From positions 9,019-49,152 of the forward strand of contig PBLC01000005.1 in the NCBI GenBank assembly GCA_002721675.1: a DNA stretch of 40,134 nucleotides, given 5' to 3'. Below, piece after piece: positions 23,295-33,029 of the stretch (its first letter is position 1; each line of letters opens with the position of its first letter). Under the pieces are notes generated by a model. That model ran no database searches, was not told the DNA's origin, and was given only the letters and a program-made list of their open reading frames with translations. Made by a program: the position numbers and the translations under genes. The DNA is from Chloroflexota bacterium (lineage in GTDB: Bacteria > Chloroflexota > Dehalococcoidia > Lucifugimonadales > Lucifugimonadaceae).

Positions 23295-24089
23295 ATGAAT
23301 GAGTTAAATTATAATTCAAATAGAATATTTTTATTATTATTTATTATTTTCCCCTTTCTATTAAATAGTTGTTTTAACCCCGACGATGGCCAAGAACTTA
23401 ATATATTTGCAGCCGCTTCATTAAGTGAACCGTTTAACGCGATAAAAGATGGATATAAAGAATCTATTAATATTGATTATGATGGATCTTTTTCTTTGAT
23501 TAATAAGATTAATTTAGGCGCAACCCCAGATATAGTTATAATTGCTGGATTGGAAAATATAGAGTTAATAAATCAGAATTTTATTGAGATAAGTTCAATT
23601 AGGCCTTTAATAAAGAATGAATTGGTTTTGCTTCATAAGAATAAACTTGGTAATTCTTTATCTTTAAGTGAAGTATGTTTAAATCAAGATATTATATTTG
23701 GAGTTGCGGATCCTTTCCTTGCCCCTCTCGGTAAACAATCGAATCTTGCTATGAATAAATATGAAGACTGTAAGAAAATTATGGCTGAAGGTAATATTAG
23801 AATTTCTAGCAATGCGAGGGCATTAATTAGTGCATTGAATTATGGACACCTGGACGCAGCCATAATTTATAAATCTGATTATATAAATAGTATTGGTAAT
23901 AATAATTCGTTTAGAATATCTGAAGAAAATTTTAATGAAATAATTTATTATCCAGTCTTAATAATGAGTAACGATAACGATAATAAATTATCTATGAAAG
24001 AAAATTTTGTTAAACACTTGTTTTCTGATGATACTAAAGAATTATTTGATAGATTTGGATTTGAAATGGTGACAAATGATATTAAATGA
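23295..24089 (+). CDS. modA: Molybdate-type ABC transporter substrate-binding lipoprotein
   Basis: The 264-residue protein begins with a hydrophobic signal segment (IFLLLFIIFPFLL) and a lipobox LNSC (Cys26), so it should be anchored outside the membrane. The mature part opens ELNIFAAASLSEPFNAIKDG, the classic ModA start, followed by DPFLAPLGKQSNLAM and ARALISALNYGHLDAAIIY in the hinge and ligand region. ModA binds molybdate or tungstate for import. It overlaps modB by 14 bases. Specificity between molybdate, tungstate or another oxyanion cannot be settled here. Confidence 0.85.
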   Translation: MNELNYNSNRIFLLLFIIFPFLLNSCFNPDDGQELNIFAAASLSEPFNAIKDGYKESINIDYDGSFSLINKINLGATPDIVIIAGLENIELINQNFIEISSIRPLIKNELVLLHKNKLGNSLSLSEVCLNQDIIFGVADPFLAPLGKQSNLAMNKYEDCKKIMAEGNIRISSNARALISALNYGHLDAAIIYKSDYINSIGNNNSFRISEENFNEIIYYPVLIMSNDNDNKLSMKENFVKHLFSDDTKELFDRFGFEMVTNDIK

Positions 24090-24744
24090 TCTTGAATTAG
24101 TAGTTTTTTCAATTCGAGGAGCTTTAGTAGCTACAGTAATTGCTGGCTTGGTCGCATTGCCAGTCGCTTATATTCTTGAATTTAAAAAATTTTGGTGGAA
24201 GCCTATATTGGAAGTTTTATCTATCCTTCCATTAGGTGTACCACCAGTAATAATTGGATATTTACTATTAGTAATGTTAAGCCCAAAATATTTTTTTGGT
24301 TCATTCATTTATTCCATTATTGGAAGCAGTTTAGTTTTTACTTGGATAGCAGGCTCGTTAGCAGCAGCAATAGTATCATTCCCTCTTATAGTAAGATCAT
24401 TCCAATTAGGATTTTCTAGCGTAGATAATAATTTAATAAACACTGCTAAAAGTTTAGGTTTATCATTCCCTTATATATTTACCAAAATAATCTATCCCCT
24501 TTCAAAAAAAGGAATATTTGCTGGCTTATTAATCTGTTTTGCAAGAAGTATTTCTGAATTTGGTGCTACTATTGTTGTTTCAGGAAATATGCCTGGAAAG
24601 ACTCAAAATATTTCTACCGCAATATATACTTCCATTTCATCTTCAGATAATAGTTCGGTGATAAGGCTATCGATTTATTCCATTTTGATGGCTATATTAT
24701 CAATAACAGTTCATAATATATTGGTAAATAGAAAATCGAAATGA
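24076..24744 (+). CDS. modB: Molybdate-type ABC transporter permease
   Basis: The 222-residue protein is a membrane permease with about five hydrophobic segments (for example ALVATVIAGLVALPVAYIL and PLGVPPVIIGYLLLVML). It has the inner-membrane EAA-type loop NTAKSLGLSFPYIFTKIIYP and the FARSISEFGATIVVSGNMPG stretch characteristic of ModB/CysW-type permeases. It should carry the oxyanion delivered by ModA. The expected ATPase ModC does not follow; instead the stop overlaps the pyrF ATG as ATGA. The transporter therefore needs an ATPase encoded elsewhere. Confidence 0.87.
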   Translation: MILNDLELVVFSIRGALVATVIAGLVALPVAYILEFKKFWWKPILEVLSILPLGVPPVIIGYLLLVMLSPKYFFGSFIYSIIGSSLVFTWIAGSLAAAIVSFPLIVRSFQLGFSSVDNNLINTAKSLGLSFPYIFTKIIYPLSKKGIFAGLLICFARSISEFGATIVVSGNMPGKTQNISTAIYTSISSSDNSSVIRLSIYSILMAILSITVHNILVNRKSK

Positions 24745-26240: not shown

Positions 26241-26462
26241 ATGAAAAAGAATTTCATAATTTTTGGAAAAATAACTGGCCTCGGGTGGTTTGTTGTAATT
26301 ATAACTATAGGTTTAGTTTTGGTGGGAAGATGGATTGGGAGTTTTATTGGTTCGCCCATCCTTTTTGCATCAATTGGAGGCTTAATTGGAATAGTGGTTT
26401 CTTATTTAGGTATAAGATCAAGCATTAGGGAAATACTAAATAATAATGGAAGAGATAAATGA
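26241..26462 (+). CDS. AtpI/AtpZ-like F-ATPase assembly membrane protein
   Basis: The 73-residue protein has two membrane segments (LGWFVVIITIGLVLVGRWIG and FASIGGLIGIVVSYLGI) separated by a short turn (SFIGSPI), ending in a charged tail RSSIREILNNNGRDK. This shape and its position as first gene of the atp operon match AtpI/AtpZ (Uncl) proteins, which help assemble the c-ring or handle cations. The sequence itself is too short for a firm family call. Its stop overlaps atpB by four bases. No ribosome binding site is obvious. Confidence 0.7.
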   Translation: MKKNFIIFGKITGLGWFVVIITIGLVLVGRWIGSFIGSPILFASIGGLIGIVVSYLGIRSSIREILNNNGRDK

Positions 26463-27607
26463 ATAAATCAATAATATTGCCCTTCTTTATTATTTTATTT
26501 ATTACTTCTATATTAGGTGGCGCAATTGGCGGCGCTTTCCCATTCGGCGGTTTTTTTCAAAGTCCGATCGCTCACATACAATTACCTGCTGAAAAAATTC
26601 CAGGATTAGGCGTTTTTAATACATCTTTAACTCTCTGGATAGGTATGATTATTTTAATGACATTTGTATTGTTGGCAACAAGAAATATGAAAAATGTGCC
26701 TGATGGTAGACTTCAAAATATAGCCGAAGTGATTGTTGAGTTCTTTGTTAATTTGGCTCAAACTATATCTGGAAGTGAAAAAGGTAGAAGATTTGTTCCC
26801 TTAGTGCTTTCAATATTTTTGTGTGTAGTTGTTTCAAATTGGGTTGGAGTTTTGCCAGGCGTAGGTACTGTAGGAATAGTAGAATCTGCTGAAGTTGTTT
26901 ATTCGCATAAAGAACATAAAGTTGATTCATGTCACAGTTCAGATCATAGTTCAGATCATGGTTCAGATCACAAAGACTTTAATTGCAAAGAAGCTTTAAA
27001 AGAGCATTTAGTTGTTTTCGAAAGTATTCCAGGTACTGGCATAAAATATCTACCTCCTGGAAGAGGTGAATCCAAAGTAGAAAAAGGTGGAGGCGTAGTG
27101 TTGGTAGAAGATGTTATCCATAGTCATAGTAAATTAGAAAGCAAGACATATGATCAAAAGCATGAGAAGCCACTTTCTTCAAACCTAGAAGGAAAGTATG
27201 CGGGTAGGTTATTGCCGCTACTTAGAGGTGCAAATACTGATCTTAATACTACTCTTGCAATCGCGATTGTAGCTATGGTAGCAGTTCAGTTTTGGGGTAT
27301 TAGTGCATTAGGTATAAGAAAATATGGAGGTAAATTTTTTAACTTTTCTTCACCTATAATGCTTTTCGTTGGCTTGCTTGAATTTATAGCAGAATTAGCA
27401 AGAGTTGTAAGTTTTACCTTTAGATTATTTGGAAACATGTTTGCTGGAGAAGTTCTGCTTGTCGCAATGATGTTCTTGTTGCCATTTATTGGTATTATTC
27501 CATTTATGGGTCTTGAATTATTTGTAGGAGTAATTCAAGCATTTATATTTTCAATACTAACCCTGATTTTTGGTATTACAGCCATATCAGATCACAGTGA
27601 ACATTAA
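26459..27607 (+). CDS. atpB: ATP synthase F0 subunit a with a large His-rich insertion
   Basis: Subunit a forms the proton half-channels beside the c-ring. At 382 residues it is about 110 longer than E. coli subunit a. The core is intact: TRNMKNVPDGRLQNIAE after the first helix, the essential Arg322 in FTFRLFGNMFAGE, and Gln360 in GVIQAFIFSILTLIFG. The extra sequence lies at about residues 140-252, between the helix ending VSNWVGVLP and the RGANTDLNTTLAIA helix, a loop that faces outside in E. coli. It contains three SSDH/GSDH repeats, two Cys (158 and 176), many His and a hydrophilic stretch up to KYAGRLLPLL. Expression should follow the atpI-like gene by ATGA coupling. Confidence 0.93.
   Translation: MNKSIILPFFIILFITSILGGAIGGAFPFGGFFQSPIAHIQLPAEKIPGLGVFNTSLTLWIGMIILMTFVLLATRNMKNVPDGRLQNIAEVIVEFFVNLAQTISGSEKGRRFVPLVLSIFLCVVVSNWVGVLPGVGTVGIVESAEVVYSHKEHKVDSCHSSDHSSDHGSDHKDFNCKEALKEHLVVFESIPGTGIKYLPPGRGESKVEKGGGVVLVEDVIHSHSKLESKTYDQKHEKPLSSNLEGKYAGRLLPLLRGANTDLNTTLAIAIVAMVAVQFWGISALGIRKYGGKFFNFSSPIMLFVGLLEFIAELARVVSFTFRLFGNMFAGEVLLVAMMFLLPFIGIIPFMGLELFVGVIQAFIFSILTLIFGITAISDHSEH
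26936..26971 (+). repeat. Three 12-bp repeats encoding SSDH/SSDH/GSDH
   Basis: AGTTCAGATCAT occurs twice in tandem and is followed by GGTTCAGATCAC, all in frame inside atpB. It looks like a slippage-prone minisatellite in the insertion loop. Confidence 0.9.
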
Positions 27608-27629: not shown

Positions 27630-27917
<288 letters not shown>

Positions 27918-27941
27918 GAAAGGTTAAAAAATAGGAGTATT

Positions 27942-28421
27942 ATGGGTATAAATTTACCAGGTTTAATAACTCAATTAATTAGCTTTGCTATCTTGGTATT
28001 TCTTCTTACAAGGTTTCTTTACAAACCTGTAGTGAAACTTTTAGATGAAAGAGCCGAAAAGATAAAAAAAGGATTGAGCGATGCAGAATCTGCTTCAAAA
28101 GGTGCGGAAGAAGCTGCTAGCAAAATTGAAGAAGAACTTTCTCAAGCCAGATTAGAAGGCAAGAAATTGATTGAGGCTGCTAGAGATGCTTCGAATAGAT
28201 TAAGAGAGGATGAAAAAGAGAAAATAACTTCTGAAATTTCTCAGATGATGGATAAGGCAAAAAAGGAAATTAATAGTGAACGAGATAGTGCGATTCTCGA
28301 ATTAAAAAATAGATTTGGAGAATTAGTAGTAGATGCGGCGGGCAAAGTAATTGAAAAAGAAATTGACGAAAAATCTCATTCTGAATTAATTAAGAAAGCT
28401 TTGGAGGAGAAGTCACTTTGA
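27942..28421 (+). CDS. atpF: ATP synthase F0 subunit b
   Basis: The 159-residue peripheral-stalk protein has an N-terminal membrane helix (LITQLISFAILVFLLTRFLY), then KPVVKLLDERAEKIKKGL, the conserved beginning of the stalk, and a long charged coiled coil rich in Ala, Glu and Lys to the end. The length and pattern are normal for bacterial b. Only one b-type gene is present, so a homodimer is expected rather than the b/b' pair of phototrophs. AGGAG precedes the ATG. Confidence 0.94.
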   Translation: MGINLPGLITQLISFAILVFLLTRFLYKPVVKLLDERAEKIKKGLSDAESASKGAEEAASKIEEELSQARLEGKKLIEAARDASNRLREDEKEKITSEISQMMDKAKKEINSERDSAILELKNRFGELVVDAAGKVIEKEIDEKSHSELIKKALEEKSL

Positions 28422-28435
28422 TTAGGTAACAGTTT

Positions 28436-28966
28436 ATGAAAAATTCTTCGACAACAAATAGGTATTCTGACGCAATTTTTGAAATTGCTAGAGAGGATGG
28501 GGAATTAGATTCTTGGAAAAATTTCTTAGAGGATTTAACTGATGTATTTAGTGACTCTGGGACAGTTGATTTTTTTCAAGATCCGAAGATTAGTAATAAA
28601 GATAAACTCAAATTGATCAGCAATTCAGAAATCAAATCCAATAGTCGTCAGTTAAATTTTTTAAGAATAATTGTAGAAAAAGGGAATGTATATCTTTTTG
28701 ATTCTATACTTATAAGATTTAATAAACTTGTTGATAGTTTTAATGGGATAAAAAGAGCAGATGTTATTACCGCTTTTAAACTCGAGCAAGAAGAATTGGA
28801 TAAAATTAATGAAAAACTAAGCGATTTAGTTGGATCTAAAGTTGTGAGTGTTAACTCGGTTGACAAGACTATCTTAGGAGGTTTTGTAGCCAAGTTTGAT
28901 GACCAAATGTTAGATATGAGTACTAAAGGAAAATTAAATAGATTAAAGGAATCAATTATTGATTAA
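28436..28966 (+). CDS. atpH: ATP synthase F1 subunit delta
   Basis: The 176-residue protein links the peripheral stalk to the top of F1. N-terminal landmarks are TNRYSDAIFEIAREDGELDSW and FFQDPKISNKDKLKLI. The C-terminal VDKTILGGFVAKFDDQMLDM and TKGKLNRLKESI is the typical delta ending (GG-F-D motif). Sequence conservation is low, as usual for delta. The position between atpF and atpA makes the call firm. Confidence 0.92.
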   Translation: MKNSSTTNRYSDAIFEIAREDGELDSWKNFLEDLTDVFSDSGTVDFFQDPKISNKDKLKLISNSEIKSNSRQLNFLRIIVEKGNVYLFDSILIRFNKLVDSFNGIKRADVITAFKLEQEELDKINEKLSDLVGSKVVSVNSVDKTILGGFVAKFDDQMLDMSTKGKLNRLKESIID

Positions 28967-28984
28967 TTAGATTTAGGAGAAAAA

Positions 28985-30490
28985 ATGGCTTCACAAGATA
29001 TATCTTCAGTGATAAAAAAACAAATTCAAGACTATGGTGATAAATCATCATTGGTTGATGTAGGCACAGTAGTTGAGGCAGGTGATGGAATTGCACAGAT
29101 TCATGGATTGTCTAATGTAAAATATAGTGAATTACTTGAATTTCCGAATGGTACTTTAGGTATGGCTCTCAACCTTGAAGAAGATAGTGTAGGGACAGTG
29201 GTATTAGGAGATTACTTAGATATCAAAGAAGGCGATGAAGTAAAAGCAACAGGAAGGATTGTTGAAGTCCCTGTTGGCGAAGAGTTAATAGGAAGAGTAG
29301 TCGATCCTCTTGGTATGCCTATAGATGGAAAAGGATCTATTAAAACTAATTCAACAGCACCTGTTGAGAAACCAGCACCAAACGTTGTAAGTAGGAAATC
29401 CGTAGATCAGCCAGTACAGTTTGGGGTTAAAGTAGTAGATGCATTGGTGCCAGTTGGAAGAGGGCAAAGAGAATTAATTATTGGGGATAGGAGTACTGGT
29501 AAAACTGCTGTAGCTATAGACTGCATAATAAATCAAAAAGGTGGAGATCTAGTCTGTATATATGTAGCGATAGGCCAAAAATCTTCTAAAGTTGCAAGTG
29601 TAGTAGACACTTTACAGAAATATGATGCAATGGAGCACACAATTGTTGTTGCCGCAAATGCTTCAGACTCTGCTCCACTTCAATATTTAGCCCCTTATTC
29701 AGGTTGTGCAATGGCTGAGTATTTTATGGATAAAGGTAAAGATGTTTTAATTGTATATGATGATTTAAGTAAACATGCTTGGGCATACAGACAGATGTCT
29801 CTTCTACTTAGAAGGCCTGCGGGAAGGGAAGCATATCCTGGAGATGTATTTTATCTTCATTCGAGACTTCTTGAGAGGGCTGCAAGAGTAGAGCAAGAAT
29901 ATGGAGGAGGCTCAATAACTGCTTTACCAGTAATTGAAACTCTTGCTGGAGATGTATCTGCATATGTGCCTACAAATGTGATCTCAATAACTGATGGTCA
30001 GATTTATTTAGAAGCAGATTTATTCAATTCGGGGGTAAGGCCAGCTCTTAATACAGGGCTATCAGTTAGTAGGGTAGGAGGGTCAGCTCAAGCAAAAGCG
30101 ATGAAAAAAGTTTCTGGTAGTTTAAAAATTGAGTTGGCTCAGTACAGAGAATTGGCAGCTTTTGCCCAATTTGGATCCGATGATTTAGATGATGTTACCA
30201 AAAAGCAATTGAGTAGAGGGGCTATAATTGTAGAGTTATTAAAGCAACCTCAATATGAACCAGTTCCTCTAGAAAATCAAGTGACATTATTATATTTGGC
30301 ATCAGAAGGTTTGCTTGATGATATTGATGTTTCTGATGTAGCAAAATACGAAATAGCTTGGAATGAATACGCCAACTCTAATGTCTCTGATGCATTAAAA
30401 AATATTAGAGAATCTGGAGACTTGAGCGATGAAGATATGCCTAAAATAAAGAAGGCAGCTGAAGACTTTAACAAAATTTTTAATACATAG
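28985..30490 (+). CDS. atpA: ATP synthase F1 subunit alpha
   Basis: The 501-residue non-catalytic nucleotide-binding subunit shows the beta-barrel start [21 protein letters not shown]-loop GDRSTGKT at residues 167-174, [19 protein letters not shown] and [16 protein letters not shown], which supplies the arginine finger to the neighbouring beta active site. No truncation or odd residue is seen. GGAG (ttaGGAGaaaa) precedes the ATG. Confidence 0.97.
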
Positions 30491-30492
30491 AT

Positions 30493-31338
30493 ATGCCAAA
30501 TTTAAGAGAATTAAGAAGTAGAATAAAAAGTGTAGAGAGTACTTCTAGGGTTACGAATGCACTGCAAATGATCGCGGCAGCTAAAATGAAAAAGGCTCAA
30601 GATAAGGTTCTTGATGGTAGGTCATATGGTGAAAAGTTAAACTCTATTCTTTCAAATTTTTATCTAAGTAATCCGGAAATTTTTAATTCAGAAGATACTA
30701 AAGGAGATAAAAATTTGGTTATCCTGGTAACACCTGACAGAGGTCTCTGTGGAGCGTTGGTATCTAATGTCCTAAAATTAGCTTCTAATTATTTTGAAGA
30801 TCATAATTCAGATAGAGAAATTGTAGTGATTGGTAAGAAAGGCAATAGTTATATTGCAAGGACAACCAACAATGAACCTAAATTTTATCAAGTATCTGAT
30901 ATGCCTGCTTTTGATGAAGTGTCTGACATTACTAAATTTATTATTGAAAAATATTCTAGTGGAGAATTTGGTGAGATAAATATTATTTATTCTGAGTTTA
31001 TAAGCACTGCTGTACAAAAAGCTAAAATTAAAAAACTGATGCCAATTCAAATTGATGAAGACTCAGAGGGAAAAGTTTCTTCAGAATTCTTGTATGAACC
31101 AAGCCTTGAAGAAGTATCAAATGCCTTAATTCCTAGATACGTAGAGGTTAATATATTTAATGCAGTGTTGGATTCTATAGCTAGCGAACATTCTGCAAGA
31201 TTAGTAGCAATGCAAAATGCTACAGATAATGCTAATGAATTAAAGGAAGATTTAACATTAGATTTAAATAAAGCAAGGCAACAAACCGTTACATCTGAAA
31301 TATTAGATATTATTGGAGGAGCTCTCGCCTTAGAATAA
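30493..31338 (+). CDS. atpG: ATP synthase F1 subunit gamma
   Basis: The 281-residue central-shaft protein begins NLRELRSRIKSVESTSRVTN and AMKMIAAAKMKKAQ-like (here ALQMIAAAKMKKAQ), and ends with the conserved coiled helix SARLVAMQNATDNANELKED and NKARQQTVTSEILDIIGGA. The middle has LVTPDRGLCGALVSNV. Everything is canonical. It starts two bases after the atpA stop. Confidence 0.96.
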   Translation: MPNLRELRSRIKSVESTSRVTNALQMIAAAKMKKAQDKVLDGRSYGEKLNSILSNFYLSNPEIFNSEDTKGDKNLVILVTPDRGLCGALVSNVLKLASNYFEDHNSDREIVVIGKKGNSYIARTTNNEPKFYQVSDMPAFDEVSDITKFIIEKYSSGEFGEINIIYSEFISTAVQKAKIKKLMPIQIDEDSEGKVSSEFLYEPSLEEVSNALIPRYVEVNIFNAVLDSIASEHSARLVAMQNATDNANELKEDLTLDLNKARQQTVTSEILDIIGGALALE

Positions 31339-31353
31339 TGAAACTTAAACTAA

Positions 31354-32778
<1,425 letters not shown>

Positions 32779-32780
32779 TC

Positions 32781-33029
32781 ATGAGCCTAAAACTTGAAAT
32801 AGTAACATCTGAAAAAAATGTGTTTTCTGGGGATGTAGATTATGTCGGAGTCAAAAGTTCTGATGGGGAGTTAGGAATATTGCCTCAACATGTCCCATTA
32901 GTAACTGAACTTGTTGAAGGCAAAGTAACTTGGAGACTTAACAATAAGAGTCAAGAAGTTAATATATCTGGAGGATTTCTAGAAGTTATTAATAATAAAG
33001 TTACTATACTTGCTGATAAAGTAGACTAA
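32781..33029 (+). CDS. atpC: ATP synthase F1 subunit epsilon, short form without the C-terminal helices
   Basis: The 82-residue protein contains only the beta-sandwich domain of epsilon: LKLEIVTSEKNVFSGDVDYV, GELGILPQHVPLVTEL, and GGFLEVINNKVTILAD. Usual epsilon subunits are about 130-140 residues and end in two helices that can extend and inhibit rotation. These are absent here, and the stop codon shares four bases with rex, so no downstream extension exists in frame. Short epsilons are known in some groups (for example green sulfur bacteria). Inhibition by epsilon is therefore not expected in this enzyme. Confidence 0.93.
   Translation: MSLKLEIVTSEKNVFSGDVDYVGVKSSDGELGILPQHVPLVTELVEGKVTWRLNNKSQEVNISGGFLEVINNKVTILADKVD

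Follow-up and report, generated by a model that had tools for sequence, protein, structure and literature searches.

In the F-type ATP synthase subunit a of E. coli, Bacillus PS3 and mycobacteria, the loop connecting helices aH3 and aH4 lies on the outside, and the corresponding turn faces outside in solved ATP synthases. These chains (237-271 aa) share their helices and the essential Arg and Gln with the protein described here, but are too short to hold a domain of the size reported below. The closest solved relative is subunit a of Chloroflexus aurantiacus, which provided the best PDB matches by both sequence and structure (9itj, 9itm and related entries). It is represented by 18 entries containing 36 a chains (T and Z in each), with 222-266 of 312 residues modelled in the a chains listed, and the enzyme reportedly contains two a-subunits per ring. 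A literature search, with most subscription journals outside its reach, found no description of the loop domain reported here.

We analysed a stretch of 40,134 nucleotides (the window) from a 0.98-Mb metagenome-assembled genome of a Chloroflexota bacterium that is 77% complete; among named organisms, its nearest relatives belong to SAR202/Dehalococcoidia. This genome (G000) contains a single atpB gene, located at 26459-27607 on the forward strand (as are all features of the gene given below) and encoding a protein of 382 aa that is recognised by PF00119, TIGR01131 and other subunit a models. The Pfam match (PF00119, ATP-synt_A) is split in two pieces and scores 137.2 bits against a cut-off of 33.9, while the TIGR01131 score of 97.9 falls just below the cut-off of 102.6, probably because an insertion splits the match. 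Arg322 (codon AGA, 27422-27424), the equivalent of E. coli aR210, and Gln360 (codon CAA, 27536-27538), that of aQ252, are unchanged in both of our alignments of relatives (28 and 63 proteins). E331 and E353 are likewise invariant, and are assumed, from an alignment by eye, to be the half-channel polar residues homologous to E. coli aE219 and aH245. Judged from these alignments, the catalytic core (R322, E331, E353 and Q360) is intact, in agreement with a preliminary description of this DNA that had noted an intact core with Arg322 and Gln360. Profile match, Arg/Gln pair and operon context all identify the protein as F-type subunit a.

The remaining atp operon, as defined by open reading frames and profile matches, encodes c, b, delta, alpha, gamma, beta and epsilon (27651-33029, forward strand). 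It had been described as ordinary, which holds from c to beta; the epsilon subunit, however, is short (82 aa, 32781-33029) and consists of the beta-sandwich of the N-terminus (PF02823), the helical C-terminal domain (PF00401) being absent. Among the genomes searched, PF00401 was not found in G000-G006, G009 and genera g5 and g6, and is kept in G007, G008 and most larger-genome relatives. From these profile searches, epsilon-type inhibition seems to have been lost in some small-genome lineages. A gene for a Rex-like redox-sensing repressor (PF06971 and the CoA-binding PF02629; 33026-33703, reverse strand) is convergent with the operon and touches its end. Elsewhere in the window, genes for a ModA-like binding protein and a molybdate-type permease ModB (23295-24744) lie upstream of pyrF and a gene with a bifunctional-nuclease domain.

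Alignment and the AlphaFold helices place a hydrophilic insertion of 114 aa in the aH3-aH4 loop (residues 140-253, 26876-27217). Helices 54-75, 84-104 and 109-131 of the AlphaFold model precede the block and helix 262-284 comes after it; in the sequence, the block is preceded by the helix ending NWVGVLPGVG and followed by RGANTDLNTTLAIA. A profile alignment to C. aurantiacus subunit a leaves a gap at the same place, the aH3-aH4 turn. The two proteins thus share the core, the position of the insertion and the presence of two Cys in the loop, but the C. aurantiacus loop has only approximately 48 aa and lacks both the E/H150/VF/GRG frame of conserved residues and the His repeat. An extracytoplasmic location of the block is strongly supported by homology to solved subunits a, the helix order and the even Cys counts of such loops, and the same three lines of evidence exclude a cytoplasmic placement. 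The preliminary description had given the coordinates of the block as 26876-27214, which are exactly codons 140-252, and was right to see a large hydrophilic insertion between two membrane helices and to place it on the outside. A sequencing or frame artefact is excluded by the open frame in many genomes, the conserved motifs and the low dN/dS. When the 113-aa block was searched alone, no Pfam family was matched, metal-binding families included, and Foldseek yielded confident matches to ATP synthase a-subunits only, Chloroflexus first, with no other PDB fold; a known domain inside the loop is therefore excluded as well.

The predicted domain includes strand beta-1 (residues 139-143, 26873-26887), which contains E142 (conserved in 56 of 63 aligned proteins), followed by helix alpha-A (144-163, 26888-26947) with the near-invariant H150 (58/63) and H153 (just 23/63). 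A His/Asp-rich loop bounded by Cys158 and Cys176 (CHSSDHSSDHGSDHKDFNC, 26930-26986) is hypervariable in comparisons within the genus. The conserved LVVF...GRG block (27005-27061) runs from strand beta-2 (183-189, with F187 in 61/63) to G201 (62/63), and is followed by a predicted strand (213-215) and helix (216-226). A second hypervariable segment (223-245, 27125-27193) is gapped in the alignment and has a pLDDT below 50 at residues 223-241. The final strand leads into aH4 (247-253, 27197-27217) and carries G249 (63/63), L251 (61/63) and P253 (63/63). The AlphaFold model of the window protein is a monomer with a moderate mean pLDDT of 71. In the model of the Ca. Lucifugimonas marina protein, the pLDDT is 81-90 for residues 151-200, 60 for 201-210 and 75-90 for 211-260, and the two runs agree on the order beta-alphaA-beta2-beta3-alphaC-beta4. 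That conserved residues frame the strands and helix, together with the L. marina pLDDT values, points to a predicted folded domain as opposed to a floppy insertion. Purifying selection is evident for the pair L004/L005, with omega of approximately 0.01 for ordered loop positions and 0.03 for the core (core dS approximately 0.55); dS is near saturation in most of the pairs compared, with only L004/L005 and L024/L058 being informative.

An AtpB match was obtained in 55 of the 60 relatives searched. Loops of 68-163 aa occur in the window's own family, to which Ca. Lucifugimonas marina belongs, and several further families of the order, while the aH3-aH4 loops of its other families mostly span 10-17 aa. 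In a tree built from core columns only, with the loop excluded, the 45 long-loop SAR202/Dehalococcoidia rows group as a single clade (SH-aLRT support of 100%), and all of them have loops of 68-163 aa. The window AtpB falls in this clade, having a loop longer than 60 aa and the E142/H150/F187/G201/G249 frame. So does the cultured Ca. Lucifugimonas marina, which shares with other SAR202 subunits a and the window protein the same domain, conserved residues and predicted fold; its 139-aa loop, unlike that of the window, contains neither Cys nor the SDH repeat. Long loops, the longest with 171 aa, are also found elsewhere in Chloroflexota; at least three changes of state are forced by starred branches of the tree, and six by parsimony. 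In these other loops the sequence frame of the clade is not obvious, and separate origins are therefore possible. One relative (L049, genome G039) has a short aH3-aH4 loop and a long N-terminal outer insertion (approximately residues 40-140), which puts 149 aa ahead of the first core helix, suggesting an outer face enlarged by another route. Genome G003 contains a second, shortened atpB at a contig end (L057/L094 and L008), identical where shared, which is probably an assembly duplicate.

The Cys158-Cys176 segment has a different history. All elements previously reported for the block, H150-x2-H153, C158, the SSDH-SSDH-GSDH run and C176, are present in the sequence. The run is encoded by a 12-bp tandem repeat specifying [S/G]-S-D-H (26932-26970, 3.2 copies by Tandem Repeats Finder), which in sequence terms is a slippage-prone minisatellite. 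Among the eight sequences of the genus the repeat varies from 0 to 5 copies, and none was seen outside the genus in the relatives compared. In two members (L024 and L058) a different His/Asp-rich stretch replaces the SDH run. All eight nevertheless keep the Cys pair, with 3-11 His in between, so that the segment is conserved in composition and not in position. The loop domain is accordingly old and common to a large clade, to judge by its distribution, and the His-rich stretch is a recent, repeat-driven addition confined to the genus. A member of another family of the order (L170) has a different in-frame repeat in its AtpB loop (YLDDHGHLKDIPEGQ, about three copies), which indicates that repeat growth in the aH3-aH4 loop occurred more than once. 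What had been described as a single metal-looking insertion is hence a real block composed of a conserved domain and a hypervariable part found only in the genus. Alignment of the relatives finds the insertion present, but very variable in length and with most of its His and Cys not conserved: the repeat number fluctuates, H153 is a minority residue and the Cys pair is restricted to the genus. This is a mixed outcome for the check proposed in the preliminary description.

Where disulphides form, Cys should occur in pairs. Of 127 different loops with at least 50 aa, 95 contain no Cys, 28 contain two and four contain four, with an odd number in none; the membrane cores of the same proteins contain no Cys in 85 cases, one in 39, two in two and three in one. 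These are given as counts, the loop clusters used for this comparison and for the Cys-His distances being rough k-mer groups. The Cys state changes at least 10 times on the tree, so loop Cys pairing arose more than once. The parity favours reading Cys158-Cys176 as a disulphide over a metal site, although paired metal ligands would also fit even Cys counts. DsbB is encoded in five of nine sampled other genomes of the genus (G001, G002, G003, G005 and G007), making oxidation of the pair feasible; it was not found in the window's own, 77% complete genome. VKOR is absent from the genus genomes searched except for one sub-threshold match, and oxidation driven by VKOR was rejected, DsbB being encoded instead. 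Across genera, loop Cys and DsbB showed no significant association (3/6 vs 2/16, one-sided Fisher P of approximately 0.10).

We favour, with a probability of about 0.55, a reading in which the block forms an alpha/beta domain that caps the FO stator on the extracytoplasmic side and carries a genus-specific, disulphide-closed His/Asp-rich hairpin. The subunit a that bears this domain in its aH3-aH4 loop would be otherwise normal and proton-translocating. The cap may pack against FO from the outside, above the half-channel of the proton inlet or next to it, where it would stabilise the interface of stator and ring and shield the proton inlet; from what is a monomer model, we infer that the domain touches b, c or the inlet. 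A Cys158-Cys176 disulphide would close the flexible hairpin, which would lengthen and shorten within the genus through slippage of the 12-bp repeat. The His and Asp residues of the hairpin may bind a divalent metal or buffer protons as a secondary, tolerated or lineage-specific property as opposed to the basic job of the domain. Sensing, likewise put forward in the preliminary description, would be a further possible role.

The alternative raised by the metal-binding look of the block is that the His and Asp residues, with or without Cys, bind Zn2+, Cu2+ or Ni2+ on the outside, for loop stabilisation or metal-responsive regulation of the inlet. The near invariance of H150 across the clade and the retention of His between the two Cys throughout the genus despite sequence differences are consistent with this, as is the occurrence of His pairs near the loop start in 95 of 122 loops against a shuffle mean of 19, an excess that reflects kinship and partly a single event. 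However, the ligand set is not fixed: H150 is the only deeply conserved His, H153 is not widely shared, Cys are lineage-specific and the repeats come and go. Closeness of Cys to His was considered as a hallmark of metal coordination and rejected: Cys are no nearer to His than under random placement (11/28 vs 8.5, P 0.20). The block is also without a match to any metal-binding family. What counts most against the metal-binding module is that its ligands vary and that Cys lie at random-like distances from His; H150 and the His content that is retained leave it some weight, and we consider it unlikely. Across the homologues, no set of ligands is conserved beyond H150.

A proton antenna or buffer, in which the His/Asp/Glu-rich loop gathers outside protons for the inlet and so helps where, as in seawater, proton activity is low, appears rather improbable. 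Loops across the clusters are indeed acidic and His-bearing (Glu 12.8%, Asp 7.2%, His 5.8%), and lie on the inlet side by homology. Their His content nevertheless ranges from 0 to 14%, most other families of the order manage with loops of 10-17 aa, and cap domains are hydrophilic in any case. We give similarly little credence to a neutral outgrowth, a tolerated hydrophilic connector of helices enlarged by repeat slippage. The length range of 68-163 aa, the two hypervariable segments and the slippage-prone repeat would all fit, but the motif frame, the confident predicted fold and the purifying selection acting on ordered regions fit a role; neutrality is plausible for the His-rich segment only. 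Finally, an inter-subunit bridge, with two a-subunits flanking one c-ring and their outer domains meeting or bracing the ring, is suggested by the two a chains per C. aurantiacus entry but is very improbable, given that the Chloroflexus loop is much shorter and that none of the comparisons made here links loop length to stator number.

Few known enzymes are as conserved as ATP synthase, whose proton half-channels lie in subunit a, a subunit that usually exposes very little on its outer side. It is a doubtful but consequential proposition that the SAR202 outer domain controls proton entry, through metal, Cys redox state or proton collecting, or braces two a-subunits around one c-ring; if true, this would represent a form of extracellular control or a stator arrangement as yet undescribed in enzymes with one a-subunit. 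The outer domain is conserved across an ocean clade that is widespread and includes a cultured member, and it makes the modification of an ATP synthase at the proton inlet open to concrete testing.
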